Part shown: positions 24,594 through 64,000 of the stretch, piece after piece
Layout: every line of letters starts with the position of its first letter
How positions within the stretch are numbered: position 1 is the first letter of the stretch
Assembly (NCBI GenBank): GCA_021732785.1
Contig: JAKFUG010000007.1
Location: forward strand, 62,001-126,000
From: Planctomycetaceae bacterium
GTDB lineage: Bacteria > Planctomycetota > Planctomycetia > Planctomycetales > Planctomycetaceae
DNA length: 64,000 nt
Direction: 5' to 3'
The notes under the pieces: generated by a model
The model's input: the letters and a program-made list of their open reading frames with translations, nothing else
Told to the model about the DNA's origin: nothing
Database searches by the model: none
Translations under genes and position numbers: made by a program

Positions 24594-24611
24594 GTTCCGC
24601 AACGAGACACC

Positions 24612-47152: not shown

Positions 47153-47158
47153 GGCAGT

Positions 47159-47204
47159 TCATTCTTCGAGGAGGGATCGAGCGGACGATTTCCACGAAGA
47201 ATGA
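47159..47204 (-). promoter_or_regulatory. Inverted repeat in the deoC leader
   Basis: TCATTCTTCG (47159-47168) and CGAAGAATGA (47195-47204) are perfect 10-bp inverted arms with a 26-base loop. On the minus strand the proximal arm ends six bases before the deoC start codon and includes the GAAG that would serve as ribosome-binding site. It has no T tract, so it could sequester the ribosome site or bind a repressor. Confidence 0.45.
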
Positions 47205-47264
47205 TCCCATTTCGCCCGGACGAGATCAAGCCGCGCACGAAGGTGGCGGTTTTGCGCGCTGTCG

Positions 47265-48254
47265 TCATTCCGCACGGGGCGGATAGACATCCAACGCATC
47301 CACCGGGGGAGCATCCGGGACCGTCGCGACGGAATTCAACAGGATCGACTTGGCCAGAACTCCGTCGCCTTTGGTGATGACGGGAGGCTTGAACGGACGA
47401 TTGGGCTGCAGTCGTCCCCCAAGATCAACGGTGAGAAAATCGATCTGCAATTCGGTCCCGCGCCCATCGCCGTCATCATCGAGCAAGCCGTGTTCTGTCG
47501 ACAAGAGCTCGCCCTCGAAATAGGACTTCGCTATGTTGCGAACTGTCGTGATGTGGAGGTCGAACAGAGAAAACTGGCCATCGAGGTCGGCATCCAAGTC
47601 CCCCGTTGTCAGATCGGTGGCCGCCATTACCCGGGCCAGTTCGTGCGGGTATTCGGTTTCGTTGGTCTCCCATTCTGCCTCGGTCGCCGCGAGGATCGTC
47701 CGGTTTTTGGCGGAAAGGCTTTTGATCCAGGAACCGCTGGTGGAGGTCGTCAGCACGAACACCTGTTCGCGGGCTTTCAAACCTTCAAACAGCTTGGCGA
47801 ACTCGGCATTTTGCAGATCGGGACCGGGGAGATTGAGCCACGAAAGCCGCCCGTCATAGTGTGTATGCCCGAGCACAATCACCCACACGCGGTCATCCGC
47901 TTGAGTCCGTTCGTTCAGCGATTTGATGGCTTCGATCACAGCCTCTTTGGTCGCGCGCGGTGCTTTTTGAATCAGTTCCGAATCACCATCACGCGGTTCA
48001 TCTCCGACAAGAAGCTGGACGGAACCAGGGCTGATCCCGTAGCGGTTCTCCAGCCCCGTCACCAGCGTGTTGACCGTCTGAGCAAAGAGATTGTGATGAT
48101 CGCCATCGCCACTCAGCCCCCATAAAATGAGTGCTCGACGCTGACCGTCTGTCGCGAGGGGCTCATCGCCACGGGCGATCGATCCGAAATCAAACATCAG
48201 CCCCAGCAACAAGGCCGCAGTGTGAAGCGGGCGGGGGGTGATCGTTGTTTCCAT
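47265..48254 (-). CDS. Secreted caspase-fold-like protein lacking the catalytic cysteine
   Basis: A 329-residue protein with a signal peptide (cleavage near residue 29). It has the layout of clan CD peptidases: a first strand 'RALILWGLSGDGDHHNLFAQ', an extended helix, then 'DDRVWVIVLGHTHYDG' with a histidine (His130) at the catalytic position, and 'QVFVLTTSTSGSWIKSL' where the family has the pattern C-x-S-G-S. Here the cysteine position is Ser171, so it is either an inactive relative or uses serine. A Ca-binding-like segment 'DLDADLDGQFSLFDL' (about 218-232) resembles a dockerin/EF-hand loop. It lies downstream of the BlaR1-WD40 gene on the same strand (101 bases). Assignment to clan CD is by pattern only. 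Confidence 0.6.
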   Translation of the reverse strand: METTITPRPLHTAALLLGLMFDFGSIARGDEPLATDGQRRALILWGLSGDGDHHNLFAQTVNTLVTGLENRYGISPGSVQLLVGDEPRDGDSELIQKAPRATKEAVIEAIKSLNERTQADDRVWVIVLGHTHYDGRLSWLNLPGPDLQNAEFAKLFEGLKAREQVFVLTTSTSGSWIKSLSAKNRTILAATEAEWETNETEYPHELARVMAATDLTTGDLDADLDGQFSLFDLHITTVRNIAKSYFEGELLSTEHGLLDDDGDGRGTELQIDFLTVDLGGRLQPNRPFKPPVITKGDGVLAKSILLNSVATVPDAPPVDALDVYPPRAE

Positions 48255-48355
48255 TTCAAACTTTCACGAACAACAGCAGGTAGCCGAACGGCTGACAGGA
48301 AGCCGCCGCGCATGCTCGAAAGGATGAGACAGGCATCAATGCCGCACCGCGGGAC

Positions 48356-50395: not shown

Positions 50396-50510
50396 GCTGC
50401 CACTCCCGAGAAATGCGTTCGTCCCCGGCTCTCATTCTGGTTTGAACAGGGCTGACGTGATCTCCCCATCGCCCCGAACGGGACGCCGGTTACCATCGGC
50501 GGACAACGTT

Positions 50511-50900
50511 CTATTTCGTGTCCATGTCGAGTTGATCCAGCAAACCACGCAAAGATTGACGGTCTTCCGCGGATAATCCCTTCGCCTTGACCAGACAGGT
50601 TAACAGGGGATTCAGCTCCCCTTCGCACAGTTTATTGGCCGTGGTTTGCAACTGGCGGGCAATCAATTCTTCGCGTTTCAGAATGGCGGAGAATTGATGC
50701 GGCCACGTTTTGCGATCGCGTTTGACGCACTTTTTGCCTTCCAACCGCTCCAGCAGCTTTTGCACGGTCGCCGTTAACGACAAGGTGCATTCACGATACA
50801 GCTTTTCCGTCAATTCGCGGACCGTCGCCGTGCCCTGATCCCAGAGGACCTGCAACACGTTCAATTCCGCATCGGTGATGTCTTGGGGCGTTCGTGCCAT
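50511..50900 (-). CDS. BlaI/MecI-family transcriptional repressor
   Basis: A 129-residue winged-helix repressor of the BlaI/MecI family, normally a dimer that is inactivated by cleavage by its M56 partner. Residues about 8-75 form the DNA-binding domain: 'DITDAELNVLQVLWDQGTAT', 'VRELTEKLYRECTLSLTATV', 'QKLLERLEGKKCVKRDRKT'. The dimerisation part is about 85-125. It precedes the BlaR1-WD40 gene on the same strand. Its promoter at 50957-50985 has a palindrome in the spacer, a likely self-binding site. Confidence 0.93.
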   Translation of the reverse strand: MARTPQDITDAELNVLQVLWDQGTATVRELTEKLYRECTLSLTATVQKLLERLEGKKCVKRDRKTWPHQFSAILKREELIARQLQTTANKLCEGELNPLLTCLVKAKGLSAEDRQSLRGLLDQLDMDTK

Positions 50901-50956
50901 GGATAATTCGCAGTTCGGGTGGGATGAATTCCGGACATTATCGAGTGCTGGCGTCT

Positions 50957-50985
50957 ATCGTACAGACAGATCGTCTGTCTCACAA
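50957..50985 (-). promoter_or_regulatory. blaI promoter with palindromic operator in the spacer
   Basis: On the minus strand a -35-like TTGTGA (50980-50985) and a -10-like TACGAT (50957-50962) are separated by exactly 17 bases. The spacer (50963-50979) consists almost entirely of a palindrome, read on the plus strand as AGACAGATCGTCTGTCT (50964-50980): 7-bp arms around TCG, or equivalently ACAGAC-AGATC-GTCTGT (50962-50978). It lies 57 bases upstream of blaI and 14 bases beyond the stop codon of the preceding gene. BlaI-type repressors bind dyads of this size in their own promoters. Confidence 0.6.
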
Positions 50986-50998
50986 GGGAAATTTGATT

Positions 50999-51904
50999 CT
51001 AATTCTTCGTTCCGGAAGGATTCGGAATCGGCTTCAACGGTTTCTCCGCAGAAAACGTCGTATAGGACGCTTCAGTTTGCTCGTTCGGATCGGCAAGATA
51101 GTCAGCTTCCCAGACAACGGTATCACCCCGAAGAACTTGAATCTGGTCGCGGTTCATGCGGGCAATGCCAAACTGCCATACGGATTTCGATTGAGCGGGG
51201 ACCGCTTCAATCAGCAGCAGCAACTCCGGGTCCGTCCCTTCCACGAAGGCAAACACCGCTCCATCAATGTACTCGGCATCGGCCGTTGGCGACGCGTAGC
51301 GGTACACCGGCTGAGTCAATCGCCGCAAGGTGCGCTGCACCCCCGTATCACCGGCACGCGTATCCACCAACTGTGCCCGAAACGCATTGGCCATCCGTCG
51401 CAACTGCACCAGCCGCGTCCCCGGATTGGCGGCGGGAGTTTCTGCATCCGAAAGTGATGTGAACTTGAGTGCCGAGCTTTGGGGCTTCCAGAAGCGAACG
51501 CCGTCGACCTGACCGACGAACGGTTCGGGATGCAGCGCACAAACTTCGATGGTGCTGCCCCAGTTGGGGGTCAACCAGCGGTAATAGCTGACCGCCGCAG
51601 CCGGTCGACCACGATGGGTGTAGAGAAAAATATCGCCATACACGGCTCCCGCTGTCGGATTCGACCAGCGCAGAATCGGCTCGGGCTGGAGCTGAAATGA
51701 CGCCGGAGTTGGTCCTGTCACGGTAAATTGACAACGCCCGGCGAATTCCTTTGCCTGACGAGACACCGTGGCAATCTGCTCTTCCGTAGTCGGCTTCGGA
51801 TCGGCGGCGAAAACGAACCGCGGGCTCACAATCAACGAACTAAGCGCCATCATGGCAACAGTACCGATGGCCAGGAATTGATTCGGCCGCGGGGGGAGTT
51901 TCAT
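50999..51904 (-). CDS. Secreted repeat-family protein, paralogue 1 of 5 (function unknown)
   Basis: A 301-residue exported protein (signal peptide ending near 'SPRFVFA') from a family I do not recognise. It has the family's two-part architecture: a first repeat 'QLQPEPILRWSNPTAGAVYG' (about 71-90), a linking helix 'RLVQLRRMANAFRAQL', and a second repeat 'QPVYRYASPTADAEYIDGAV' (about 199-218) that continues into 'FVEGTDPELLLLIEAV'. A tryptophan motif 'TVVWEADY' follows. Its start overlaps the stop of paralogue 2 by four bases (ATGA), so the two are translationally coupled. It is the last gene of the cluster before the blaI promoter. Four related copies lie upstream. Confidence 0.75.
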   Translation of the reverse strand: MKLPPRPNQFLAIGTVAMMALSSLIVSPRFVFAADPKPTTEEQIATVSRQAKEFAGRCQFTVTGPTPASFQLQPEPILRWSNPTAGAVYGDIFLYTHRGRPAAAVSYYRWLTPNWGSTIEVCALHPEPFVGQVDGVRFWKPQSSALKFTSLSDAETPAANPGTRLVQLRRMANAFRAQLVDTRAGDTGVQRTLRRLTQPVYRYASPTADAEYIDGAVFAFVEGTDPELLLLIEAVPAQSKSVWQFGIARMNRDQIQVLRGDTVVWEADYLADPNEQTEASYTTFSAEKPLKPIPNPSGTKN

Positions 51905-52818
51905 GGTGCGGTCCCTGTTTTTTTGACAGCGTTGTCATTCATCGGGGCATTCGCGCCGCGGAAGGGATGAAAGCTGTTGTAGATTTTGCTGAGACCTTCA
52001 GCATCGCCGAGGTTGTTGTTCTCGTGACTTTTATCGAGCGGCATCTGCCAGATTTTGTCGTCGCCGTGGAACGCGGCAACATCCCAATAATGAAAGCGGG
52101 CGAAGGCGTATCGAAAGCCGGCGGCCCGCGTGGGATTGCGAGTTTCGTCGAACGACTCCATCAGCAACAGCACCTCGGGATCGGTCGCCAGCACGAATGA
52201 GAGAATGACTCCGTCCGAGACGCCGGTTTCCGGTGAGGAGTATTCCAACAGGGGCCGCGGTGCGAGCCGAAGGTCATTGTGATCGTTCTTGGGGCTGGTC
52301 AACTCCGCGCGAAAACTGCGGGCCAGTTGCCGCATTTGCAGCAACCGCCCGACGCGCGTGCCAGCGGGCTCCGGTGCTTCGGGGACATCTTTCCAGACGA
52401 GTCCCAGTTGCCTGGGAGCCCATGCCAGCTTGCCGTCGAATGTGGCCCGCAATGGTCCTGGGGCAAGCGAATGAAATTCGTGCTTCACGCTCACTTTTTC
52501 GTTGTAGACATAACTGAACATCGTCGCGATGGCATACGGGCGTTGTTTGTGCATCCACACGTACGTCGCCCCGCGCTCCTGTTGTCGCGCGGGGTTCGTC
52601 CAATTGAGAAGAGACTTCTCGTTGAGCTCCAGTCGAGTCCCTTCGGGAACCGTCTGGATCACGTACTTTCGCGCGTCCTCGAGAAAATTGGGCGGCGCAT
52701 TTTCCGTTGTCGTCTGCGCACCAACGGAACGCGTGAGAAGCATCAAAACGAACGGCAAACATCGAAAGGCATGGGCTGCGGAAAGGATGAAGGAACGCGT
52801 CCATGGGAAGGCTGTCAT
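51901..52818 (-). CDS. Secreted repeat-family protein, paralogue 2 of 5 (function unknown)
   Basis: A 305-residue member of the same family as its neighbour, with a signal peptide ending near 'TRSVGAQ'. First repeat: 'LELNEKSLLNWTNPARQQER' followed by 'ATYVWMHKQRPYAIATMFSY'. Linking helix: 'RVGRLLQMRQLARSFRAEL'. Second repeat: 'LRLAPRPLLEYSSPETGVSD' then 'FVLATDPEVLLLMESFDE'. The terminal part 'DDKIWQMPLDKSHENNN' carries the conserved W. It is 40 bases downstream of the VWA protein gene and overlaps paralogue 1 by four bases. Function is not inferable; the repeats may form paired beta-sandwich-like domains (guess). Confidence 0.75.
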   Translation of the reverse strand: MTAFPWTRSFILSAAHAFRCLPFVLMLLTRSVGAQTTTENAPPNFLEDARKYVIQTVPEGTRLELNEKSLLNWTNPARQQERGATYVWMHKQRPYAIATMFSYVYNEKVSVKHEFHSLAPGPLRATFDGKLAWAPRQLGLVWKDVPEAPEPAGTRVGRLLQMRQLARSFRAELTSPKNDHNDLRLAPRPLLEYSSPETGVSDGVILSFVLATDPEVLLLMESFDETRNPTRAAGFRYAFARFHYWDVAAFHGDDKIWQMPLDKSHENNNLGDAEGLSKIYNSFHPFRGANAPMNDNAVKKTGTAP

Positions 52819-52858
52819 CGGAGATTCTTTGCAACAAAGGTGCGGTCATGCTGCGGCA

Positions 52859-55567
52859 TCACGCCAATCCTACCATCCGGCGATAAATCCATTCAGCAGT
52901 CAGCAAGCCCAGCAGCCACGTCCACAACCACCAGGTGCTCCACAAGGGGGTCTTCTTGATGATGGGAGCCCCGGCTTCAATCGGCACCTTCCGCAAGACA
53001 TCAGCGAGTTGCCGCGCGTCGTGAAGCACCTGGCCCCCCGAATTCTGCGCGATCGATTCCAGCAAGGCGTGATTCGGAAACGGATTCTGTTGCTCGAACG
53101 GATCGTGCAAAATCTGAATGTCGACCGATGTGCTGTCGACCTGCGTGTACTCTTCCATGGCCGTCAGTTCGACTCGCAGCGACTGGCTCGCGGAGCCCAC
53201 GGAGAGTGCGTCGGCAATCGGCAACTCCATGGCATACGCCGGTTTCCCGCTCGATGCGTCGGCGCGGGGCAATTCGAACTCTTCCCCCCAGGCGATGAAC
53301 GGTCCCGTTTCGCCACTGGTTCGCGGCTGTGATTGCGGCCAACGGATTGGTGAATCATTGGACTCCAGATCGCTCAACGACGATTGCGGCTCGATCATAC
53401 TGGCGATTTTGTAGGTCCCCGTTTGCTGCGCCCCTTCGTCAAAAGCGGTGGCGGAGAGCACGAGTGTTTCACCGGGCCGATAGAACTTCTTGTCGGCGGT
53501 CACCACGAGCCGGCGTCGGCCCACCGAAGAGCTTTCGGTCAACCAATACACGGCGTTGCGCCAGAATTTCCCGTAGGCTTTATTGTCGTTGCCGCCCCAA
53601 CTGGTCAGAAATTCGTTGGCCCATGGGGACGTGATGGGGACCGCCATCGCCATCGTGCGGCCGCGGCCGTATCGCCCGGCCACAATCGCCGGCTGATTCG
53701 CCGCATTGGCCTCCAGTGTCGAAGGTGACGCTGGCTGCGGCGTCCCATTCGTATTAGAAACGGAGGGCGGTGTCCCCCCCGACTTTTGCCCCAGCAGATT
53801 TTTTCGGAGGGAATCGAACAACGTTGATTTTGGTGCTGCTGCGACTGGTGCTGCCGTCGCTCCCGCGGGGGGTTCCACGGCAGCGAGATTCGACAGCGCC
53901 AGCACCGAGGCAAAGTTCGGTTTCACATCCTGCCAGCGATTGGCACCGAAGAACGACGGAAACTGCCCGACAATTTCCTGATTCCGACGGGCATCGCCGA
54001 CAATGGACCACAGCGGATGGCCGAGCGCCGTCTGTTCCGCACGAACGCTGACCTGGGTGCCGGGCAACCAGTCTCCGTCATCCCGCATGACAATCGGCAA
54101 CATTTCGGCCAGCGGCGAATCGTGCCAGCCGCCGGCGGCGAAACTCCGCGGCCCCCCCACCATCAATAACCCGCCGCCGCGTTGTCCGATCCACTGGTCG
54201 ATCCAGCCCAACTGCTGTTCGGTAAACGCATTCAAGCCAATATCACTGAGAACGATCGCATCGAAAGCGGTCAACTCGGCAATCGTGTCGGGAAATCCGC
54301 GGGCGGTGTTCACAGCTCCCGCTTCGGCAATCCGTTGCAAACGTGAGCGACCGTACGGTGCATGCAGCACCACGCATTCAATGTCGTCATCTTCCGTGAG
54401 TGCCTGCTGCAAGTCGGAATAGGGGCCCCGCACCTCCGAACGATCGCCGGTTTGCACGGCGCGTAACGGCTGGGCACTCCCTTCGATATACAGCACGCGA
54501 ATCTTCGTCCTGTCGATTGCCACTTCCGTTTTGAAAACGTTGTTATTCGTCGAGACTTCGTTCGGCATTCCGGAGACGGCCACTTCCAGCTTGCGTGTTT
54601 TCGGATCGCTGCGGAACGACAGGCTGGCCGTTTGGAAGCCATCGTGCAGTGTGACGGGAGTCGGCACGGAGAGTTGCCGGGGCCCCTCGTCCGGCGTTGC
54701 TCCGGGGGCGGATAATGTCAATTCGCAGCGGCGGCCTTCGTAACCGTAGCTACGCAGGAACACCTGGACTTCCACCTCCGCAAATCGCCGAACACGCGGC
54801 GGGACCACGCAGGCGACGATCGAAACATCTCCGCCCCGGTTCGTGTCACCAACGGGGACGACATGCACCGGGATCTTCAACCGGGCAAATTGCCTGGCGA
54901 GTGATTCCACGCCGGTCTCATCGCGCGCACGTCCATCCGAGAACAGCACCACTCCCGCCGGGGGGCGGCGTCCGAAGCGGCTCGACACCTGCCGCAATGC
55001 GGTGAGCAATTGCGTGTCGGAATCGCTCGGTGTCACAGGATGCGGCTTGGCTGGAAGTGGGGTCGATGCGGTTTCGCGAGCCAGAGCTTCCCCCGACCGT
55101 GCCGAACTTGCGGCAAGAGTCTTTGGCTCGGGTTTCAGTCCCAGCGATCCGGCATCGGGAACGGCGGCGAGACGATGACCGAAGCGGAACAAACGGACCT
55201 CGGCACTCGGAGCATCCGCCGTCAACGCGGCCGCTTCGCGCATCAACCGGGTGGCGTGATCAAAGCGTGTCTCACTGTCACCAACGGACATGCTTTGCGA
55301 AGAATCGAGCAGGTAGAACAGATCGGGACGATCGAGCGGGCCGGGCGTCTGCGTGACATTCGAGGGATTCAACAGAATCAGAACGACGGTTCCCACGGAG
55401 AGCGCGCGGAGCAGATACAGCCCGTTCCGTTTGGAAACCGCCGCCGGCGCACCACTCAGCCAGCGCAGCCCAACGAATCCCAAACCGATCGCCAGAACCA
55501 GTGCGGCGAACACCGTCAGCGAGAGCGGGGTTAATAAAGTCAGCGATGCCAGCATGGGATCCGTCAT
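52859..55567 (-). CDS. BatA-like membrane protein with VWA and amidotransferase-like domains
   Basis: A 902-residue membrane protein. Two N-terminal membrane segments (about 14-36 and 49-66) are followed by a von Willebrand A domain with metal-site motif DxSxS at Asp88 ('LLDSSQSMSVGD'). Further along, 'AFDAIVLSDIGLNAFTEQQL' and 'GGGLLMVGGPRSFAAGGW' are the class I glutamine-amidotransferase-like fold (no clear catalytic triad) seen in planctomycete and bacteroidete VWA proteins. 'GRYGRGRTMAMAVPITSPWA' also fits. A final segment (about 878-895) re-enters the membrane. It lies between paralogues 2 and 3, with 40 and 64 bases to them. Bat-type proteins are part of MoxR/VWA envelope systems. Confidence 0.85.
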   Translation of the reverse strand: MTDPMLASLTLLTPLSLTVFAALVLAIGLGFVGLRWLSGAPAAVSKRNGLYLLRALSVGTVVLILLNPSNVTQTPGPLDRPDLFYLLDSSQSMSVGDSETRFDHATRLMREAAALTADAPSAEVRLFRFGHRLAAVPDAGSLGLKPEPKTLAASSARSGEALARETASTPLPAKPHPVTPSDSDTQLLTALRQVSSRFGRRPPAGVVLFSDGRARDETGVESLARQFARLKIPVHVVPVGDTNRGGDVSIVACVVPPRVRRFAEVEVQVFLRSYGYEGRRCELTLSAPGATPDEGPRQLSVPTPVTLHDGFQTASLSFRSDPKTRKLEVAVSGMPNEVSTNNNVFKTEVAIDRTKIRVLYIEGSAQPLRAVQTGDRSEVRGPYSDLQQALTEDDDIECVVLHAPYGRSRLQRIAEAGAVNTARGFPDTIAELTAFDAIVLSDIGLNAFTEQQLGWIDQWIGQRGGGLLMVGGPRSFAAGGWHDSPLAEMLPIVMRDDGDWLPGTQVSVRAEQTALGHPLWSIVGDARRNQEIVGQFPSFFGANRWQDVKPNFASVLALSNLAAVEPPAGATAAPVAAAPKSTLFDSLRKNLLGQKSGGTPPSVSNTNGTPQPASPSTLEANAANQPAIVAGRYGRGRTMAMAVPITSPWANEFLTSWGGNDNKAYGKFWRNAVYWLTESSSVGRRRLVVTADKKFYRPGETLVLSATAFDEGAQQTGTYKIASMIEPQSSLSDLESNDSPIRWPQSQPRTSGETGPFIAWGEEFELPRADASSGKPAYAMELPIADALSVGSASQSLRVELTAMEEYTQVDSTSVDIQILHDPFEQQNPFPNHALLESIAQNSGGQVLHDARQLADVLRKVPIEAGAPIIKKTPLWSTWWLWTWLLGLLTAEWIYRRMVGLA

Positions 55568-55631
55568 CAGGAAAATGTCTGTAATGGGAGTCGTTGAGTC
55601 AAGTTGCCGTTCGTGAACATCGGGGAATCTC

Positions 55632-56531
55632 TCAGGGCTTCTTCGTCAATGGTCCATTAGTGGGGTTCACTGGCGTCGCATCCGTTAACCAACCGTTGGC
55701 GTAGGCATCGCGCACCGCCGGGGGATCGGCTTCGGTTCGTGTCCAGACTTCGCGATCATCAAGAGTGGCATAGACTTCCCCGCCCGTCATCTGGACGAAG
55801 GCGTATGTCCATTCCGCGGGCTTGTCGGCCTCCCGTCGGGCCACTTCCAGCACCAGCAACACTTCGGGATTCGTTCCATTCGTGTAGGCAAACACGGCTG
55901 CATCGAAGAGCCCGTTGGTGGCATCCTGATAGCGGTACAGCGGGTTCGGCAACGGACGAAGCTGGATGCGTCCTTCGACCGGAGTTTTCTCGTGCGCGGT
56001 GAATCGCTGCCGCAATTGCTTCAATTGAATCTGCCGCGCGGCTGAAGCGGCCGCAGGTTCGGGAACATCACTCAGTTTTTGACGAGCTTGTCCGGGTTCG
56101 CGGGCTGTCCAGCGGATTTCCTCACCGCGCTGCACCGTGATTTTCTCGGGTGATAATGATGCGACTTCGTATAACCACCGCGGGCCGACAGGCGACTTCG
56201 CATAGTATTCAACGGCGAGCAACGCAACCGGCCGATCCCGTTCCGACCAGAGCCAGAGCGTCGCTTCATCATTCCGCCGCGTGGGATCGGCATATCGCAG
56301 CACCGGCGTGGCTTGTAACGTTCCGCTACGAACCTTGCCGGTCGACGGCAAGGTGATCTCGAATGACTCTGCGATCTTCTGCATGCGGGCCAGTTGTGCG
56401 GCTCGATAATCGCTCTCCGAGGCCTCTTGGGCGCGGACCGATATCAACAACGGCGACGACACCACGAGGCATGTCACACCAACGCGGACCAGAGAAATTG
56501 CTCGTCGATACAAATCACTAATTCCGGGCAT
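55632..56531 (-). CDS. Secreted repeat-family protein, paralogue 3 of 5 (function unknown)
   Basis: A 299-residue member of the family, with a signal peptide ending near 'LLISVRAQ'. ATG 56531 is chosen over a frame opening at 56645 because the upstream extension would overlap paralogue 4 by over 100 bases and has no signal peptide; with it the overlap is 14 bases. First repeat: 'LQATPVLRYADPTRRNDEAT' then 'LWLWSERDRPVALLAVEYY'. Linking helix: 'ARQIQLKQLRQRFTAHE'. Second repeat: 'LRPLPNPLYRYQDATNGLFD' then 'FAYTNGTNPEVLLVLEVARR'. The tryptophan motif is 'DDREVWTRTEADPP'. Its C-terminal tail is Pro/Asn/Thr-rich. Function unknown. Confidence 0.75.
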   Translation of the reverse strand: MPGISDLYRRAISLVRVGVTCLVVSSPLLISVRAQEASESDYRAAQLARMQKIAESFEITLPSTGKVRSGTLQATPVLRYADPTRRNDEATLWLWSERDRPVALLAVEYYAKSPVGPRWLYEVASLSPEKITVQRGEEIRWTAREPGQARQKLSDVPEPAAASAARQIQLKQLRQRFTAHEKTPVEGRIQLRPLPNPLYRYQDATNGLFDAAVFAYTNGTNPEVLLVLEVARREADKPAEWTYAFVQMTGGEVYATLDDREVWTRTEADPPAVRDAYANGWLTDATPVNPTNGPLTKKP

Positions 56532-57363
56532 CGATGGCCTCTTTAGTTTCAATCCGGCCCACGGGACAGGAGATGTAGGCATCGCGCAAGAGTTTTGAGG
56601 TGCGGGATTCCACTCTTTCCGGAACGTGCCAGATTTCGTGTTCACCGTGTTTCATCGAGAGTTCGCGCCAACTGAAACGGAGAGGAACGAAATACCACGC
56701 GATACCATCTTTGCTTCGATGGGATTCCAGCAGCAGCAACGCCTCGGGATCCGTTCCCACATCCCACAGGTAGCTGAAGAGCGCCCCATCCATTACATCA
56801 CCTTCGGCAACTTCGTAGTCGTAAATGGGAGCCGGCGATAACCGAAGCTGCGACACTTGTTTGCCGGCGCGCATTTCAAAGCTGAACTCCCGCGCCAATT
56901 GCCGCATTTGAAGCAACCGCAGTCGGTGCGTTGCCGCGGGCGTCGGCGCTCCCTCAACGCGTTGCGGCGATGGTCCGGCTTCGGTTGCTTCCCAGACATA
57001 ATCATTTCCAATCCGCGTCCGTGGCAACGGTTGAGCGGCGATCGCGTGAAACTCGTGAAAGCCTTCCACCTCATCATCGCCATTGCGAAACGAACCCAGA
57101 CATCCCACGAGTTGCGGACGGTTCTTATCCGTCCAGACCCAAACCGCCCCGAAATTCCCGTCGGCCGTCCAGCGCATCACCGGCGTTTTTTGCAGAGTCA
57201 AAAGGTGCTTTCGATCGGTGTCTAACGTAAACGAATAGGCTTCGGCCTGCTGCTGGAATTGCCGCTCCAGATTCTGCGTGCTCCGTTTCTCTTCCGGTTC
57301 CGACGACGTGACATCCGCTGGCAAACCGGCACTGAGCACCGCCGCGACCACAAACACATTCAT
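56518..57363 (-). CDS. Secreted repeat-family protein, paralogue 4 of 5 (function unknown)
   Basis: A 281-residue member of the family. ATG 57363 is chosen because GGAG lies eight bases upstream and it yields a signal peptide ('MNVFVVAAVLSAGLPADV'); the frame opens at 57540 but runs into the preceding gene. First repeat: 'LQKTPVMRWTADGNFGAVWV' then 'WTDKNRPQLVGCLGSF'. Linking helix: 'RLRLLQMRQLAREFSFEMRA'. Second repeat: 'LRLSPAPIYDYEVAEGDVMD' then 'YLWDVGTDPEALLLLESHRS'. The tryptophan motif is 'EHEIWHVPERVESRTSK'. The GTDPE signature is nearly identical to paralogues 1 and 2. Confidence 0.75.
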   Translation of the reverse strand: MNVFVVAAVLSAGLPADVTSSEPEEKRSTQNLERQFQQQAEAYSFTLDTDRKHLLTLQKTPVMRWTADGNFGAVWVWTDKNRPQLVGCLGSFRNGDDEVEGFHEFHAIAAQPLPRTRIGNDYVWEATEAGPSPQRVEGAPTPAATHRLRLLQMRQLAREFSFEMRAGKQVSQLRLSPAPIYDYEVAEGDVMDGALFSYLWDVGTDPEALLLLESHRSKDGIAWYFVPLRFSWRELSMKHGEHEIWHVPERVESRTSKLLRDAYISCPVGRIETKEAIDARN

Positions 57364-57397
57364 GACCAACACTCCATCGTCTTTGTGAGTCGAGGCA

Positions 57398-59254
57398 TTA
57401 CTTCTTGTCTTTCGACATCGCAGGCTTGGCTTTGGGGTTTGTGGTTGCGGGCGGGTTCTCCGCACGAGTGCTGCCTTCCCGCGAGAGCACCTGATAGTAC
57501 CGCTCCACCAGTCCCTGATACTTTGGCGGGGCGAGATCATCCGTCATCGAAGCGAAGTCGCCGAGTACCAGACTTTGAATCCGGGATTGGATTTCTTCCT
57601 GAAGTTCAATCAATTGGGCCTTGTAAACCGGCGGAGCCATAAAGCGGCCATCGGCGAATTGCAGCTTGGCGGTCTCCATGACATTGCCCACGCTAAAACC
57701 ATTCTGCTTCATTTCCGCGAGCAGGTCCTCGCGGCGTTTCTCGCTGATGCCAAGTTCGTCGGCTTTGTCGAGCATTTCAGCGACAGCGCGATGCCACGCA
57801 ACGACCTGCGCGGGTGTCTGCAACTCATCCAGCTTTGAATGGAGTTGTCCAAGCTGCTGTTCGAGTTTGCGAAGCTCTTCGGCTTGCGGTCCGACCAGCG
57901 CCCGGTAGACCGAATCCAGCCGTTGCGTGGTGATCTGGAAACGATCCGCCACATCCAGGGCCGTGGCCTGGGCGTCTTCGGGCTTCTGACTCCGGATCTG
58001 ATCCGCTGCGGATTGCATGGCCTCGACCGCTTTTTTGAGGTCCGTCTCCTTAAGAAGGGCTGTGACTTTTTCCGCAGCCGTCTGATCTTCCGGCATTGGC
58101 GATTGGGCAATCGAATCGAGAATGTCAAGGAGCGTTGCCGCCCGTGCGGCCAAGGCGGCGGCACGTCCGGCGAGTTGTTCGCGACGTTCCTCCTCCGTCA
58201 GGGGACGTTTTTCAGCGCGACCGCCTCCGCTGCCGGGCGTCATTTTTTCAGCGGGGGTTTTGGCTTGATCCCCCGTCCCTCCCCCAGCGGGCGGCTGTTT
58301 GTCGGCGGGCATGTCGTCTTTGTCGGCTGCCTCTCCGCCGCCGTTGGAATTGGGGTCCGCAGGGGCCTTGTCTTTGGGTTTGCTTCCGCCACCAACCCCC
58401 TGCTCTTCCGGTTGATCCTTATCCGGCATCCCCGAGCCAGAACCGGTCTTGTCTTTGTCAGACGGCTTCTCACGAGCGCCATCTTGACCCGTTTGATCTT
58501 TGTCCGCGTTCTCTTCTGGCTTGCCACCGGTCCCTTCCGGTTTTTCGTTGGTCCTCGGCTCCCGGGGATTCTTTCCGTTTCCTTGTGGGTCTTTCGGCGG
58601 CGTGGTCGGGTCGGGTTTATCGCCGGACTTTCCGTCAGCGCTTTCGGGACGTGGGGCATTCCCATTCGGCTTATCGGTCGGTTCTGGTTGCGGTGTTGTC
58701 CCCCCTTGTCCCTTGGATGGGTTCGGGTTGGGCGGCAACTTGGGATCGGGTTTTCCTTGTCCCGAGGCGGATGCCGGAGTTTGCATCATGGCCTTGGACA
58801 TCGCCTGGGTTTGTTGTGCGAACTGCTGCTCGGCTTTGGCAAGCTGAGCAGCCATGTTCCGCGCCGCGGCGATCTTCTGCGGTGTCTCTTCGGTGAGGAG
58901 GGCTTCCAGAAGCGTGGCAATCTCCTGAAACATTTTCGCCGTTTCTTCGGCACGAGCACGGGCGGCAACCGGATCGCGTTCAATCGACCCGGCAACACTT
59001 TCCGCGGCTTCGGCGGCTTCCGTCATGCGCTGTTTCGATAATTCGGAAGCGCGCTTGAGTCGCGTGAGAATGCGCTCGATTTCCCGGGCATCCAGCGAGA
59101 CATCGTATTGCTTGTCTCGAAGTTCGACGCGCGACGGCCGCGATTTCGCCGGTGCGGTCTCCGGTGCGGCGTCATCAGCGCGAGCAGTCGCGGTATACAG
59201 GGCAAGGATTGCCACCGTCGACGTTGCTCGCCGGAAAAATGTTCGATTGGTCAT
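57398..59254 (-). CDS. Secreted coiled-coil protein with long disordered linker, function unknown
   Basis: A 618-residue exported protein with a signal peptide ending near 'TATARA'. Residues about 40-160 are helical and coiled-coil-like ('ILTRLKRASELSKQRMTEAA'). Residues about 160-345 form a long low-complexity linker rich in Lys, Asp, Gly, Pro and Asn ('DKDQTGQDGAREKPSDKDKT'). Residues about 350-600 are again helical, with heptad-like 'LRKLEQQLGQLHSKLDELQT' and 'ELQEEIQSRIQSLVLGDFAS'. The end is basic. It lies between the DUF4175-like gene and paralogue 4 on the same strand (71 and 34 bases). In similar planctomycete Bat clusters, such helical proteins sit next to the DUF4175-like gene, so a structural or scaffold role is plausible. 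Confidence 0.75.
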   Translation of the reverse strand: MTNRTFFRRATSTVAILALYTATARADDAAPETAPAKSRPSRVELRDKQYDVSLDAREIERILTRLKRASELSKQRMTEAAEAAESVAGSIERDPVAARARAEETAKMFQEIATLLEALLTEETPQKIAAARNMAAQLAKAEQQFAQQTQAMSKAMMQTPASASGQGKPDPKLPPNPNPSKGQGGTTPQPEPTDKPNGNAPRPESADGKSGDKPDPTTPPKDPQGNGKNPREPRTNEKPEGTGGKPEENADKDQTGQDGAREKPSDKDKTGSGSGMPDKDQPEEQGVGGGSKPKDKAPADPNSNGGGEAADKDDMPADKQPPAGGGTGDQAKTPAEKMTPGSGGGRAEKRPLTEEERREQLAGRAAALAARAATLLDILDSIAQSPMPEDQTAAEKVTALLKETDLKKAVEAMQSAADQIRSQKPEDAQATALDVADRFQITTQRLDSVYRALVGPQAEELRKLEQQLGQLHSKLDELQTPAQVVAWHRAVAEMLDKADELGISEKRREDLLAEMKQNGFSVGNVMETAKLQFADGRFMAPPVYKAQLIELQEEIQSRIQSLVLGDFASMTDDLAPPKYQGLVERYYQVLSREGSTRAENPPATTNPKAKPAMSKDKK

Positions 59255-59325
59255 CAGAGAACTCCTGCTTCTGTCTGTCGCGGCAACCGATGGATCACCG
59301 AATGGAATCCAAAAATCGCTTGGTA

Positions 59326-61599
59326 TTACTGAGGAACCGTAGCCGGTGTGGTCGGTTCACCCGCGGCGGGTTCGTCGGTCAATCCGTCCGCGACGACGCC
59401 TTCCTGGCGAATCAATTCTTCCAGCCGTCGAATCAACTCGCGGGCTTCTTCCTTGTCGGTCTTCGGGCGGCGCAGCTTTTGATTCTGTTCGCGATCGAAT
59501 TGCCGTAACCGCGCCAGCACCGCCGGGTCGGGATTTTTCATCACGAAACGGATGGCCCGTTCACGTTGCTCGATCAAGAGCTTAAGAGCATCTTTCATTT
59601 GCAGAGATGCGTTTTCCCAATTGCCGACGGAGAGCGAATCGACAGCCTGCAACATGGCATTCTGCGCTTGATAGAACAATTCCGTATCATCAAAGCCGCG
59701 CGCTTCGAGCCCTTGCGCGGTTTCCTCCACCGATTGGGCGAGGTCCGTCTCGAATTTCATGAGCTGATCGAGCTCGCTGGCGTCGGGCTTGCGGCCGACC
59801 TTGGCGCGCTTCTCAATCTGAATGGTGCGGTTGACGGCATAACGCTGACGGGTGATCAACTCTTCGAGCGATTTGAAATTGCCGCCCCCCATGCCGCCGT
59901 TGTTGGGCATGGGGTCGGGGTCAATCACGCGAAACTGCCGTTTGAGCGGACGGATATCAATAAATCGCAGATCGGTTTCCGTCCGCTGCGGTTTATCGGG
60001 ACGGTTGTCTTCGGCATAGGCGTAGTACATCACGCTGTCTTTTTGCGTCAGTTCAAAGAACTCCAGCGGCAGCACTTTTTCGAGAGCCGCCTGCGTCGTC
60101 GGCGAAAGAGACCCTTCCGCGGCTTCTTCGGCCGCCGCGGCAACCACCGAAAAGTCTTCTGCCACCAACGGCACTTCCTGTTCATTGTTGATTTGAAACA
60201 GAATGCCCGCGCGGGCGATGCCATAGTCGTCACGCACTCGGACGCGCATCGGCAACTCGGCCAGGGTGTGGACTTCCACTTTGTCCTCCGGCGACTCGAA
60301 GAAGACTTGCGGTGGCTGATCCTGCCGCACGCGAATGCGGTAACGATTCTTTGGCAGTTTTGTGCCGTCGGCCGCTTCGCCCTGAACGCTGAAGCTCCGA
60401 TCTTCACTGAGTACCAGTTCAATGGACGCCATCGTCGGATGCTCGTCTTCCAGCAGAACAGTGGATGTAGAACTGTTTCCCAAACTGTGATCGCTCAAAA
60501 CCAGGGGAAGGACTGCGTCTTCTTCGGGCGGTTCCTCTTCCGAAGTCGCTTTTCGCGCCGCGAGAATCATCGTTGCGGATTTTACCTGCTTGTCGAAGAG
60601 GATATGAAAATGCGCATGCGTTCCTTGCAGTGCCACGACATTGCCATCGCGCACTGTGCTGGTGGGTTGACCTGTATAACTTGGTGGCGTGAGATCGACT
60701 TCGAACGACTCAATTCGTAACGGACGGCGAATGCGGATGCGGTAAGTGGGGCTTTGGAGATCACCGGCACGAACGAAATACTCCATCGGTTTAGTGAGCC
60801 GATCAAATTTTACCTGGAACGATTCCTGCGGCCGGCCATCGGATGTGGATGCCATCTCCGCCGCCTTCGCCTGGACGGTGCCATCGGAAAGGATTCGTTC
60901 CGTCCATTCGGCGTCGGGTTGACCGGCCGTGCGCGTATACATGACGACCGCGCGGTTCGTTCGTCCGATCAAGGTGGCTTCCAGCGCGAGGTGGCCCCCC
61001 TCTTCCACAATTTCGTTACCGGGGGCAACATTCAGGTCGCGATACGAGCGATCGCCGATCAGCGTGCGGGTTGTCGCCGTCCGCCATTGCCAATCGGCGT
61101 CCGACGCCACGATCCAGATCACGGCTCCCGCGACGACGGCACCAGCCATCAGCCAAAGTTGACGCAAAGGGATCACGTCTTCAATCGTCAGCGGGAGGGC
61201 CCGGCGATGCGTTTCCTCCACGAGGGCTGCCACCAGCGTCGTCGCGACCCCTTCCGATTGCACCTGGGCCAGCGACATCCTTCCGAACTGCACCGAGGTG
61301 CGCACCGACTGTCCCAATTCGGGAAACGAGTCTTCGATTTCCGCAGCAGTCTTCGACGTTCCCCAGGCACGGCTCATTTGAAGGGCGGCCCGAAGTCCAT
61401 AAGCGATGGCGACGAGCCCGACACCCGCCAGGCAAGCCACCCGCGTGTTCCGGTCGAGTTCCCACACATAATCCGCAGCGACGGCAATCGCGGCCCCGAT
61501 CAGCAGGCACAACCCCGTTCGTGCGAGAGTTTCACCAATCAGAACACGGAGCTTCTGTGCCCGCACGGATTGAAACCGCTTCAGAAAGGCGTCATTCAT
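59326..61599 (-). CDS. DUF4175-like membrane protein of the Bat-type cluster
   Basis: A 757-residue protein with three N-terminal hydrophobic segments (about 32-47 'LCLLIGAAIAVAADYVW', about 53-69 'VACLAGVGLVAIAYGLRA', about 148-165 'LWLMAGAVVAGAVIWIVA'). The central part (about 200-470) is extracytoplasmic and beta-rich with Ig-like pieces ('GDLQSPTYRIRIRRPLRIES', 'EVHTLAELPMRVRVRDDYGI'). The C-terminal part (about 570-735) is helical ('LEELITRQRYAVNRTIQIEK'). The overall layout is that of DUF4175-family proteins found in Bat-type clusters. It is followed by the 618-residue coiled-coil gene and preceded at 45 bases by the BatA/VWA gene. Confidence 0.8.
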   Translation of the reverse strand: MNDAFLKRFQSVRAQKLRVLIGETLARTGLCLLIGAAIAVAADYVWELDRNTRVACLAGVGLVAIAYGLRAALQMSRAWGTSKTAAEIEDSFPELGQSVRTSVQFGRMSLAQVQSEGVATTLVAALVEETHRRALPLTIEDVIPLRQLWLMAGAVVAGAVIWIVASDADWQWRTATTRTLIGDRSYRDLNVAPGNEIVEEGGHLALEATLIGRTNRAVVMYTRTAGQPDAEWTERILSDGTVQAKAAEMASTSDGRPQESFQVKFDRLTKPMEYFVRAGDLQSPTYRIRIRRPLRIESFEVDLTPPSYTGQPTSTVRDGNVVALQGTHAHFHILFDKQVKSATMILAARKATSEEEPPEEDAVLPLVLSDHSLGNSSTSTVLLEDEHPTMASIELVLSEDRSFSVQGEAADGTKLPKNRYRIRVRQDQPPQVFFESPEDKVEVHTLAELPMRVRVRDDYGIARAGILFQINNEQEVPLVAEDFSVVAAAAEEAAEGSLSPTTQAALEKVLPLEFFELTQKDSVMYYAYAEDNRPDKPQRTETDLRFIDIRPLKRQFRVIDPDPMPNNGGMGGGNFKSLEELITRQRYAVNRTIQIEKRAKVGRKPDASELDQLMKFETDLAQSVEETAQGLEARGFDDTELFYQAQNAMLQAVDSLSVGNWENASLQMKDALKLLIEQRERAIRFVMKNPDPAVLARLRQFDREQNQKLRRPKTDKEEARELIRRLEELIRQEGVVADGLTDEPAAGEPTTPATVPQ

Positions 61600-61644
61600 G
61601 ATTCTGAGTCCCTCTCAACGCTCACCACGGATTCCGATCCGGCT

Positions 61645-63768
61645 CTATGCCGTGGTGCGGTTTCCTACAAAGCCTTCGAGCAGCAACGCCCCTAACAGGA
61701 GACAGGCCACCCAATGCCATAATTCGTCGCGATGCAGGTCGACCGCATGCGCGGACACCACCTCGTTTGTGGAAGACCCGTTCTCGGACACAAATTTCAA
61801 AGCAAAGCGGTTTTCAAATTCTTGTGGTGTGCAGCGTTCGGTTTCTGATTCGCGCGGGCTGACATTCACCACGTCGGCGTGATCCGGCCGGTTCCAAACT
61901 CCCGGCGTGTTCCATGCGGAGGCACTCGCGGCGAGAGAACCCTCAGAATCGGCCGAGGGTTCTGTCTCCGTGTCGTTCCCATTCGCGGCGGTATCGAGCA
62001 ATACATTGCGGACACGGCCACCGGCGGTGAGACCGACTTCATACCCGAGCCATTGGTGCATCAGCGGGAGATACAGCGACGTCTGGCACCAGTCGCTCCA
62101 TTCCCGTCCGCACGAGGTGGTCACCCAGAGAACCTTCCCATCACCGACAGGACGCTCGATCACCGCGGCATCGCCGGTTCCGAATTCCGCGATGACCGTG
62201 GCATCTTTGACAACTTTGATCGGCGTGTAGGCCGCAAACGCCAGCCGCCGCAAATCGCCGTGCTGGGGGTCGCTCAACGATTGATAGATCGGATGGTTTT
62301 CTTCCCAGCGGCTGAACCGGAATGGCAAATCAACCGCGATCTTCGTTTCGCTCACATCGCCTACGGTGAGCCCCGCTTGTTTTAGTGTCGCCATGCTCTC
62401 GGCCGTGGTCTTGTCACCGGTAAAGACGAGCAACCCGCCCCCCGCTTTCACGAAGCCTGCCAACGCTGCCGCATCACGCGCGGTCACAGCCGGCACATTG
62501 GCCAGCACGACCGCGTGGTAATCATTCAACTTGGGCAGAGGCTCTTCGTCCGTCAACGCGATGACCGTCGGACTAAACGGGCTGTCGGCAAACGTTTCAC
62601 CCGTGTTGGCCAAGCGTAACGCGGTCTCCAGAAAATACGTTTCGCTCACTGCGGTATGGGCACCGACACCGTTGTTGACAATCAGCACGCGATACGCCGG
62701 CGACGCGGAAATGGCGAAAAAACGCTGGTTGTCAAACGCCAAATCATCTGTGGCATCGACATAGACGCGGCCTTGCCAGAGCCCTTCGTTCAATGCCGGT
62801 AGTTCAAAATCGAGCGTGATCGTGGCGCCGGGTTCCAGTTTCACCTTCTCCCGCAGCGTGATGCGATCGGACAGCTTGGCGAAATCCATTGGAGTGGGCA
62901 CCGATGAAGTGCGACTCAATCCCGGATTGGCCACCGGGGGATCGGAAACGCGGCCGACTTCCAGAATGATGCCCACTTCTTCTTTAGCGAAAGCACCGCC
63001 ATGCAGAATCGAAGCGCGCACCGTGGCCGCCTCGCCGGGGCGAATCCACGTCCGCGGCGTCCGCAGATCCGTCACTGCCAGGTTGTTGACGACGCTTTGA
63101 CCCAGATCATGCAAGTGGACTGCCACATCGGTGGGAAACGCTTCGACTTCGGTCCAATCGAGGCCCGATTGCTGCAAATCGGTGAAGAGGTGAAACTGTT
63201 TGGGACCATCGGGAGCCTTCACGCAGACGTCCCGTGCCCACGCAATCGCCGCGCCGAAATTCGTCGCCCCATAAGTCGATTCCGGAACTTTCAGCGCCGC
63301 GAGTTGCCGGGAATCGCCGGTGCCGCTTTGTTCGGTGCCAAGGGGATGAACGGTGTGATCAAAGAACGCAATCTCGATCCGTGTCTGCGTGCCCGAGTTT
63401 TGAATCAACTTCTGAGCCTCGGCCACGGCGTGATCGAGCAATCGTCCCTGTTCCCCTTTTAACTGCATCGTTGCCGACTGGTCGATGAGGATCACCATCA
63501 AATCGCGATCCCCACTCGTCGCCGCTGCGGTGAGGAATGGCCGCGCAAACAGAGTCACGAGCAAGGCGACCAGCGCCATCCGCAAGGCCAGCAGAAACCA
63601 TCGCATCACTTTGCGGCGGCGTGCATTCTCTTCGAGCACGATGCGGAGAAAGCGAATCGTGCCGAGTTCCACGCGCTTCGTCTTGAGACGAAAGAACAAA
63701 TGGATCAGCACCGGGACCGCAATTGCGGCCGCGCCGAAGAGAAACGAGGATTGCAGAAAGTCAGGCAT
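61645..63768 (-). CDS. BatA-like membrane protein with VWA domain
   Basis: A 707-residue protein whose N terminus is a BatA domain: 'MPDFLQSSFLFGAAAIAVPV' then 'LIHLFFRLKTKRVELGTIRF' and 'RWFLLALRMALVALLVTLFA' (two membrane segments). A VWA domain follows, with the metal-site motif degenerate: Asp96 in 'LIDQSATMQLKGEQG' gives D-x-S-x-T rather than D-x-S-x-S. A later amidotransferase-like segment is seen in 'LNDYHAVVLANVPAVTARDA' and 'GGGLLVFTGDKTTAES'. A C-terminal membrane segment ends the protein ('HWVACLLLGALLLEGFVG'). It begins eight bases after paralogue 5 and leads the genes 61645 down to 50999. Confidence 0.85.
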   Translation of the reverse strand: MPDFLQSSFLFGAAAIAVPVLIHLFFRLKTKRVELGTIRFLRIVLEENARRRKVMRWFLLALRMALVALLVTLFARPFLTAAATSGDRDLMVILIDQSATMQLKGEQGRLLDHAVAEAQKLIQNSGTQTRIEIAFFDHTVHPLGTEQSGTGDSRQLAALKVPESTYGATNFGAAIAWARDVCVKAPDGPKQFHLFTDLQQSGLDWTEVEAFPTDVAVHLHDLGQSVVNNLAVTDLRTPRTWIRPGEAATVRASILHGGAFAKEEVGIILEVGRVSDPPVANPGLSRTSSVPTPMDFAKLSDRITLREKVKLEPGATITLDFELPALNEGLWQGRVYVDATDDLAFDNQRFFAISASPAYRVLIVNNGVGAHTAVSETYFLETALRLANTGETFADSPFSPTVIALTDEEPLPKLNDYHAVVLANVPAVTARDAAALAGFVKAGGGLLVFTGDKTTAESMATLKQAGLTVGDVSETKIAVDLPFRFSRWEENHPIYQSLSDPQHGDLRRLAFAAYTPIKVVKDATVIAEFGTGDAAVIERPVGDGKVLWVTTSCGREWSDWCQTSLYLPLMHQWLGYEVGLTAGGRVRNVLLDTAANGNDTETEPSADSEGSLAASASAWNTPGVWNRPDHADVVNVSPRESETERCTPQEFENRFALKFVSENGSSTNEVVSAHAVDLHRDELWHWVACLLLGALLLEGFVGNRTTA

Positions 63769-63776
63769 CGGCCGTT

Positions 63777-64000
63777 CTATTGTTTGTCACGGGGGCCATA
63801 AAACGCGGCCCAGGTTTCGAAGACGTTTCCCATTCCCGCCGTGTGCGGAGCCTCCCACACCGGTTGATCCTTGATGCTGACCGCCAGCCCTTCGGCCGTC
63901 ATGCCGGAAAAGCCAAAACGCCACCCGTCATTCTGAGAAAAGTCGAGGAGCAGCAGCAAATCGGGGTTGGTTCCCGTCCCCGAAAAGCCAAAAACCGCCC
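63777..64000 (-). CDS. Secreted repeat-family protein, paralogue 5 of 5 (partial, cut by window edge)
   Basis: The last 73 residues of a fifth member of the family; its start lies beyond the right edge. The visible sequence is the second repeat: 'AVFGFSGTGTNPDLLLLLDF' aligns with the GT(D/N)PE-LLLLE signature of paralogues 1-4, followed by 'GWRFGFSGMTAEGLAVSIKD' and the tryptophan motif 'DQPVWEAP'. It ends eight bases before the BatA/VWA gene. Its presence shows that the family brackets the whole cluster. Confidence 0.75.
   Translation of the reverse strand, partial: AVFGFSGTGTNPDLLLLLDFSQNDGWRFGFSGMTAEGLAVSIKDQPVWEAPHTAGMGNVFETWAAFYGPRDKQ

Follow-up and report, generated by a model that had tools for sequence, protein, structure and literature searches.

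A putative BlaI-type envelope regulon uniting a MoxR/VWA operon with a dispersed family of duplicated secreted proteins in Planctomycetota

Introduction

BlaI/BlaR1 signalling and the MoxR/Bat gene clusters are both known from earlier work, and the locus considered here holds relatives of the two side by side. It lies in the 6.69 Mb genome of a Planctomycetaceae bacterium (GenBank assembly GCA_021732785.1, contig JAKFUG010000007.1, positions 62,001 to 126,000; G000:C13:62001-126000 in the handles used below). This stretch of 64,000 nucleotides is referred to as the window, and the sequence beyond it was also read (L003). The subject is an operon of MoxR and VWA genes interleaved with six paralogous genes for secreted proteins (members A–F), the adjoining genes for a BlaI-type repressor and an M56 membrane protease with WD40 repeats, and a short palindromic box that may connect them with further family members elsewhere in the genome.

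BlaR1 spans the membrane with four segments and carries its HEXXH motif between the third and the fourth. According to a report on Clostridium thermocellum (PMC8457756), BlaR1 cleaves BlaI, a BlaI motif found by DNA affinity purification sequencing consists of inverted GTCTAT repeats five bases apart, electrophoretic mobility shift assays were made on single-repeat probes, BlaI regulates itself, and the two BlaI proteins of that species have three and one operons. As in the BlaI/BlaR1 and MecI/MecR1 signalling of Staphylococcus aureus and the BlaI regulons of C. thermocellum, a BlaI-type repressor gene stands here beside that of an M56 receptor with four membrane segments and HEXXH, and an inverted-repeat box of the form measured in C. 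thermocellum precedes the repressor's own gene. Unlike in those systems, the planctomycete receptor carries WD40 repeats in place of a penicillin-binding sensor, and what the box seems to control is a MoxR/VWA operon together with many dispersed genes for secreted proteins, a larger set than that reported for C. thermocellum. A different operator form, TACA/TGTA, is given for CopY, BlaI and MecI in PMC7253601, where the short form is said to predict binding poorly, a caution that applies to the box described here as well. The TACA/TGTA form itself was rejected, as it had no match before the members examined.

The Bat/MoxR–VWA clusters of Bacteroides and Leptospira resemble the locus in the order of their MoxR, DUF58 and BatA-type VWA genes, and the corresponding families PF07726, PF01882 and PF07584 were all above cutoff here. 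The planctomycete operon differs in its additional DUF1549, DUF1501, EF-hand, DUF4175 and VWA/GATase genes, in the interleaved secreted paralogues and in its place behind a BlaI-type box. To our knowledge, the substrates and triggers of MoxR/Bat-type machines are open in most bacteria. MoxR/VWA couples are described as chaperones that remodel client proteins (PMC9976466), and in Leptospira the Bat proteins were not found to protect against oxidative stress (PMC3557215).

The beta-propeller subtype of the MoxR–vWA ternary conflict systems, as presented in PMC7159879, also combines MoxR, vWA and a beta-propeller in one locus and has planctomycete hosts. There the propeller is fused to the vWA protein, whereas here it is part of the M56 receptor and the vWA proteins are of the membrane Bat type; Pfam scans reported no propeller family in the BatA, DUF58 or VWA/GATase protein. 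Membership was rejected, since the propeller–vWA fusion is what defines those systems. The MoxR protein passes the bpMoxR cutoff (39.2 versus 27), with a far stronger match to AAA_3 (206.6), and neither BatA nor DUF4175 appears in the main text of PMC7159879. In the open-licence literature of PubMed Central, no description was found of a propeller-bearing receptor with this operon, this regulon or this duplicated secreted family.

The Operator-like Box and the Proposed Regulon

The operon has the order DUF1549–DUF1501–EF-hand–MoxR–DUF58–BatA–DUF4175–coiled-coil–VWA/GATase, with the six paralogues alternating with these genes, and beyond its VWA/GATase end follow the genes for BlaI and the BlaR1-like M56 protease. 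BlaI (50511–50900, minus strand) matches PF03965 (Penicillinase_R) at E 1.2e-24, with 87.3 bits against a cutoff of 22.6. The M56 protein (48356–50395, minus strand) matches the peptidase domain PF05569 at E 4.8e-33 and has four hydropathy peaks (residues 7–25, 38–56, 133–151 and 344–362), with HEXXH at residue 230, between the third and fourth peaks, and WD40 repeats after the last. At its C-terminus, Pfam and NCBIfam scans matched WD40 families instead of a penicillin-binding sensor, and the NCBIfam blaR1 and mecR1 models matched only within residues 131–329, below cutoff. By analogy with BlaR1, the WD40 propeller would face outward. Between BlaI and member F lies a palindromic operator-like box (50964–50976, without strand) with 9 of the 10 fixed bases of AGACA-N3-TGTCT.

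The box was evaluated on 103 collected family members (exclusive of four fusion proteins, and with 11 of the 16 matches of G299 and 5 of the 6 of G350), which were labelled by hand as belonging to the MoxR/BlaI cluster (46) or lying outside it (57). A palindrome search upstream of these members yielded AGAC-N5-GTCT in 21 and exact AGACA-N3-TGTCT in 9, against maxima of 9–12 and 3–4 for any palindrome of the same size in ten shuffles. Boxes were scored by the ten fixed bases of AGACA-N3-TGTCT in the 250 bp upstream, with the 250 bp downstream as control. Among the 56 dispersed copies with upstream sequence (one of the 57 has none), 25 reach at least 9/10 and 36 at least 8/10, compared with 0 and 0 downstream. 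When all 1,024 five-base arms were counted at the same spacing before these copies, AGACA came first with 25, its one-letter variant AGACG followed with 7 and the rest had at most 5. All five dispersed copies in the window's own genome score at least 8/10.

The same box precedes BlaI at 9/10 or better in 12 of 13 loci, the thirteenth scoring 8, and is found at every DUF1549-first operon start (11/11; L003, L058, L061, L129, L134, L149, L176, L211, L212, L215 and L218). Since L211, L212 and L218 were fetched once an exact box was known on the contig, the unselected count is 8/8; L218, whose contig holds only DUF1549–DUF1501, was assigned to the operon type by similarity. The operon-start consensus, aTatAGACAaAATGTCTATAg, fits the form of the C. 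thermocellum BlaI motif. At the own operon start, the longest reading frame begins 21 bp after the box, and a likelier start, which on our reading is a signal-like methionine, about 90 bp after it. Members at operon junctions reach 9 in 0 of 42 cases and 8 in two, and of three further cluster members one (in G332) scores 9. Before the nine other types of operon gene, a score of at least 9 occurs in 0 of 112 cases (MoxR 0/18, DUF58 0/19, BatA 0/18, DUF4175 0/14, coiled-coil 0/2, VWA/GATase 0/8, M56 0/15, EF-hand 0/1, DUF1501 0/17) and a score of 8 in 5 of 112.

In the family-negative genomes G345, G375 and G330, a BlaI–M56 pair is preceded by a box at 9/10, which links the box with BlaI and not with the family, and the MoxR genes of five family-free operons (L170–L174) had no box of at least 9 within 800 bp (0/5). 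Exact boxes number only three in the own genome: one precedes a dispersed copy, one the operon and one a lipoprotein-like gene.

Because the box is shared by BlaI, the operon start and the scattered copies, we consider it quite likely, on computation alone, that the operon and the boxed scattered copies constitute one regulon under this box. We infer that BlaI would bind these boxes and that the propeller would be the sensor. The repressor would hold down three kinds of target through AGACA-N3-TGTCT: its own gene together with the M56 receptor, the DUF1549-first MoxR/VWA operon with its interleaved members, and family genes that stand singly at many unlinked sites. In its build the M56 protein is like BlaR1, with four membrane segments, a protease core and a WD40 propeller in place of the antibiotic sensor. 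On meeting an extracytoplasmic signal with its propeller, it would inactivate BlaI by destroying it, whereupon the MoxR/VWA machine and the secreted repertoire would be made jointly. The secreted members, whatever their ligands, would most likely be diversified binding proteins outside the membrane that the MoxR/VWA machine assembles or loads.

The combined statement, that there is one inducible envelope regulon whose secreted members are probably assembled or loaded by the MoxR/VWA machine, is favoured with some reserve because its functional clause is hedged. That the secreted family comprises clients or binding partners of this machine is, taken by itself, a possibility to which we give somewhat less than an even chance. 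More tentative still is a wider picture, peculiar to planctomycetes, in which a propeller-sensing receptor of the BlaR1 type governs both a diversified, genome-wide repertoire of secreted proteins, whose duplicated fold would be previously unseen, and the MoxR/VWA machine responsible for their maturation; this would amount to an inducible, variable surface or periplasmic arsenal in which old paralogues change places between operon and single sites without losing the operator. If the boxes are real, a trigger pathway for a machine of the MoxR/Bat type (BlaI and the M56-WD40 receptor) could be named along with a concrete list of co-induced candidates. BlaI/BlaR1 signalling, known from antibiotic resistance, would then also serve a larger envelope regulon through another kind of sensor, and a secreted protein family without a recognised fold would be added.

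The third exact box of the own genome (L178, G000:C5:13193-13205) stands directly before a 308-aa gene, lipoprotein-like by eye and without a Pfam family, which is a candidate regulon member. In G329, a second, different MoxR–DUF58 operon (L220:3063-5316, fetched because of its box) has an exact box about 133 bp before MoxR.

A Duplicated Family of Secreted Proteins

Members F (50999–51904, 301 aa), E (51901–52818, 305 aa), D (55632–56531, 299 aa) and C (56518–57363, 281 aa), all on the minus strand, align end to end, and the other three are 26–29% identical to the first. An earlier note, made from the window's letters alone, had described these four genes as homologous, with overlaps of 4 and 14 bases and in alternation with genes of a VWA cluster, and had seen a fifth running out of the window; all of this was borne out. 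The fifth, member B, has its 3' part at 63777–64000 (minus strand), the whole gene being L003:777-1586 (269 aa), and the sequence beyond the window holds a sixth, member A, between MoxR and DUF58 (L003:2482-3339, same strand). The note had missed the internal duplication, the MoxR and DUF58 genes just outside the window, and the BlaI and M56-WD40 genes (48356–50900) with the regulation that they suggest.

A six-member profile run against the contigs of the own genome recovered the six members on contig C13 at E ≤ 5e-100 and five further copies at E ≤ 7e-46 on contigs C3, C15, C18, C34 and C37; one extra match, at E 1.05, was rejected as chance. The signal peptides proposed in the earlier note are supported by a simple hydropathy rule (not a dedicated signal-peptide predictor), which marks a hydrophobic stretch at the N-terminus of 100 of the 103 members but at a mid-protein control position in only 4. 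Each member consists of this signal-like N-terminus and two copies of one domain of about 100 residues. Profile comparison of the N and C halves gave a probability of 98.6 (E 8.5e-16, 96 columns) with 13 rows and of 98.7 (E 2.4e-16, 106 columns) with a 110-row alignment, and the halves are in register, the GRP turn of the N half aligning with the GTDPE turn of the C half.

The GT(D/N)P(E/D) signature that had been proposed is present without being strict, one member having ATDPE, and the tryptophan motif near the end holds in part: the last W is invariant in 13 rows but, once 110 rows are compared, falls outside the columns with at least 90% conservation. Those columns comprise R, P, Q, F, L, W, G, T and E; the R of the LRLLP stretch and the P of TDPE are invariant in the 110 rows, and the R and P of the N-half GRP turn are nearly so. 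As no usual catalytic set occurs among them, the secreted proteins are read as binding or structural modules, probably non-enzymatic.

The family was called unrecognised in the earlier note, and the members tested indeed belong to no Pfam, NCBIfam or PADLOC family. None of the six own members was above the Pfam cutoff (one at E 0.079) or found in PADLOC, and four of the six gave nothing in NCBIfam; when the 110 rows were scanned singly, ten Pfam families were hit by one member each (E 0.016–0.093). A known family was thus rejected on the basis of Pfam, NCBIfam and PADLOC (PHROGs were not searched). In a sequence search of the PDB the best E value was 0.41.

AlphaFold2 predicted member F, less its signal-like start, with a mean pLDDT (predicted local distance difference test) of 95.0 and a pTM (predicted template modelling score) of 0.92, as two units of one helix followed by strands; the second unit alone gave 90.9 and 0.84. 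Foldseek returned no PDB match at E ≤ 0.001 for the whole model or the single domain, and matches in the PDB and a viral library were weak and mixed. The best Z values of VIA-align, 5.9 for the whole model and 4.7 for the single domain, are in a range which the tool's notes describe as common without relationship. In fold comparison, the beta-domains of GH36, GH63 and GH116 and the Mog1/PsbP-like folds show a weak similarity in sheet arrangement to the models, at Z below 8 and identity below 15%, so that membership is not claimable. Given only such weak, mixed structural matches, no new fold is claimed from the models.

The family domain also occurs in fusion with DUF1581–DUF1583 and PD40 (two genomes), with a CsgG/TPR protein and with ankyrin repeats (L111, L112, L113 and L114). 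The propeller of the M56 protein resembles the PD40 propellers of the fusion proteins only weakly (E 0.003 at best), and therefore this clue was not built on.

Distribution and Operon Junctions

Matches at E ≤ 1e-5 were found in at least 16 of 101 genomes of the same taxonomic family, with up to at least 21 copies per genome, and two phylum-wide searches each gave at least 3 of 294 genomes; the numbers are minimum values, as at most 8 candidates were scored per genome phylum-wide and at most 23 in the 101-genome set. A seed search with one entry per species gave 50 loci under planctomycete titles that include Schlesneria, Planctomyces, Singulisphaera/Isosphaeraceae, Gemmataceae, Stieleria, Rhodopirellula and further Planctomycetota; one locus has just 'bacterium' as its title and another Candidatus Kuenenia. 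By a hand count that left two weaker M56 matches aside, 23 of the 50 fetched stretches include BlaI, a close M56-WD40 gene or a gene of the MoxR operon other than DUF1501.

The earlier note had expected homologues to lie near VWA clusters and had named the opposite as a refutation. By a small margin most do not: 57 of 103 are outside, an upper bound because some contigs are short. Two G333 copies counted as dispersed lie at a contig end and branch with the post-M56 members in the tree, so they could be part of the MoxR/BlaI cluster. In genomes assembled as a single contig the share outside is 13/19 (G294) and 13/21 (G332), and in the own genome it is 5 of 11, with the remaining 6 copies contained in some 15 kb.

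When matches to the window's BatA were ranked without the self match, the first eight (E ≤ 2.1e-89) all came from family-positive genomes, and the next three genomes (G320, G360 and G330) are family-negative; this search used a looser cutoff, the strict one giving 0 of 20 genomes. The basic MoxR–DUF58–BatA operons of G330, G364 and G360 showed no family member and no BlaI–M56 pair in the fetched stretches, the G360 contig ending inside DUF4175. The system may also be lacking in some members of the window genome's own genus: in the near-complete genome G216 the family had no match, and the best BatA match, at E 1.4e-23, was too weak for a close orthologue.

Interleaving of members with operon genes recurs in G294, G332, G351, G303, G329, G333 and G341 and on named planctomycete contigs. 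Across genera, members occupy the junctions DUF1501|EF-hand, MoxR|DUF58, DUF58|BatA, BatA|DUF4175, coiled-coil|VWA and VWA|BlaI and the position after M56; L119 holds twelve members and a fragment, and L123 nine in a row and one more. A tree of 102 of 107 rows (four fusion proteins and one fragment left out), built by a quick method without bootstraps, shows deep paralogy, orthologous subfamilies across genera, and operon and dispersed members mixed. Orthologous members sit at MoxR|DUF58 in G000, G303 and G351 (support 100) and at DUF58|BatA in G000, G351 and G333, with a displaced relative in G294 (support 99). Position clusters on the tree overall, with 36 changes against a shuffled mean of 43.1 and 0 of 200 shuffles as low, though near-copies can create such clustering. 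It is clearest for coiled-coil|VWA (1/500 shuffles as low), MoxR|DUF58 (5/500) and DUF58|BatA (11/500), not evident for VWA|BlaI (160/500) and absent after M56 (500/500). Before BlaI and after M56, different genera have different subfamilies; as these occupants are not conserved by position, the proposal that different members serve different VWA proteins, one for each partner, is not indicated.

Alternative Explanations

Several observations weigh against the proposed regulon. Even an 8/10 box within 250 bp is missing from 20 of the 56 dispersed copies, only 2 of 13 in G294 reach 9, and the single dispersed members of G069, G238 and G325 have no box of at least 8 in that distance. In a separate named set, from which eleven loci were dropped because they repeated genomes that were in use before, along with genes lacking an N-terminus or with short flanks, a score of at least 9 occurs in 7 of 41 first-in-run copies and 3 of 66 internal ones (0 downstream in both classes). 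There AGACA shares first place among the arms with AGACG, and GGCCG is close behind at 6. An operon or M56-like gene is present in the loci of 22 of the 41; among the remaining 19, scores of at least 9 and at least 8 occur in 5 and 9 copies. Stieleria tagensis, in this set, carries exact boxes at three dispersed copies. Operon loci without a recognised DUF1549, in which members precede MoxR (L132, L138/L162 and L158), showed no box of at least 9. One-mismatch sites in the own genome number 72 versus 69 for the reversed control, so there is no genome-wide over-representation, and exact boxes in 16 genomes range from 0 to 8 in both target and control; the signal lies in position, not number. A second 9/10 match in the window (24605–24617) lies far from the operon. 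Further BlaI–M56 pairs with a box occur in family-positive genomes, on stretches chosen for the box (L224:8965-11507 in G332 and L214:7511-10233 in G299), and more than one BlaI could therefore act on it.

One alternative is the model of the earlier note, by which the paralogues form a machine's variable or substrate component and different members dock to different VWA proteins. A tie to the MoxR/VWA operon does stand, through the recurrent interleaving at VWA gene junctions, the shared box and the two junctions that keep orthologues in three genera each, and docking would suit the remodelling of clients described for MoxR/VWA couples in PMC9976466. Yet more than half of the members collected are found away from the cluster, genera differ in the subfamily that they have before BlaI and after M56, up to at least 21 members per genome would face three VWA-type proteins in the operon, and the basic operon occurs without a member in the stretches of G330, G360 and G364, so we regard member-by-member docking as unlikely. 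It is less probable again that the box is read by another regulator or is a general promoter element, its co-location reflecting envelope genes expressed under a common condition. BlaI binding is deduced from sequence, genome-wide box counts equal the control and multiple M56-receptor relatives occur in some genomes (as many as 5 at E ≤ 1e-25), all of which would agree with another regulator; against it stand the presence of the box ahead of BlaI at 12 of 13 loci as well as in three family-negative genomes, its lack at 9 or more before the 112 other operon genes, and its fit to the BlaI motif measured in C. thermocellum (PMC8457756). A self-spreading or neutrally expanding gene family that settles in operon junctions without common function seems highly improbable: the copy numbers, the patchy occurrence and the differing occupants of the same junction would suit it, but the copies are divergent, orthologues are common to several genera, many dispersed copies have the box, only 4 of the family matches listed in the 101-genome search hold a stop codon, and inspection by eye noted no mobility gene next to any of the own genome's five dispersed copies (no family search was made). 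Joint control of the operon and the scattered copies through the box thus remains the preferred reading.

Remaining Features of the Locus

The other operon genes in the window, all on the minus strand, encode a membrane VWA-like/GATase1-like protein (52859–55567; VWA_2 just below and GATase1_like above cutoff), a 618-aa protein with no Pfam family above cutoff, for which 'coiled-coil' is a label from the earlier note alone (57398–59254), a DUF4175 membrane protein recognised by Pfam (59326–61599) and, by Pfam and NCBIfam scans, BatA with its aerotolerance regulator N-terminal domain and VWA_2 (61645–63768). Beyond the window, from member B to DUF1549/DUF1553, the genes keep the operon's strand: DUF58 (L003:1592-2485, PF01882), MoxR (L003:3503-4537, PF07726 or AAA_3), the EF-hand and DUF1501 genes farther along L003, and DUF1549/DUF1553 (L003:7917-9566). 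A scan of 47000–64000 gave 3 sigma-70 promoter-like sites against a shuffled mean of 4.3 and 30 terminator-like sites against 21.4 (standard deviation 5.3), counts that were set aside as uninformative. Just downstream of the M56-WD40 gene lies a peptidase C13-like gene (47265–48254, minus strand; E 1.3e-4, just below the Pfam cutoff), which may share its transcript.

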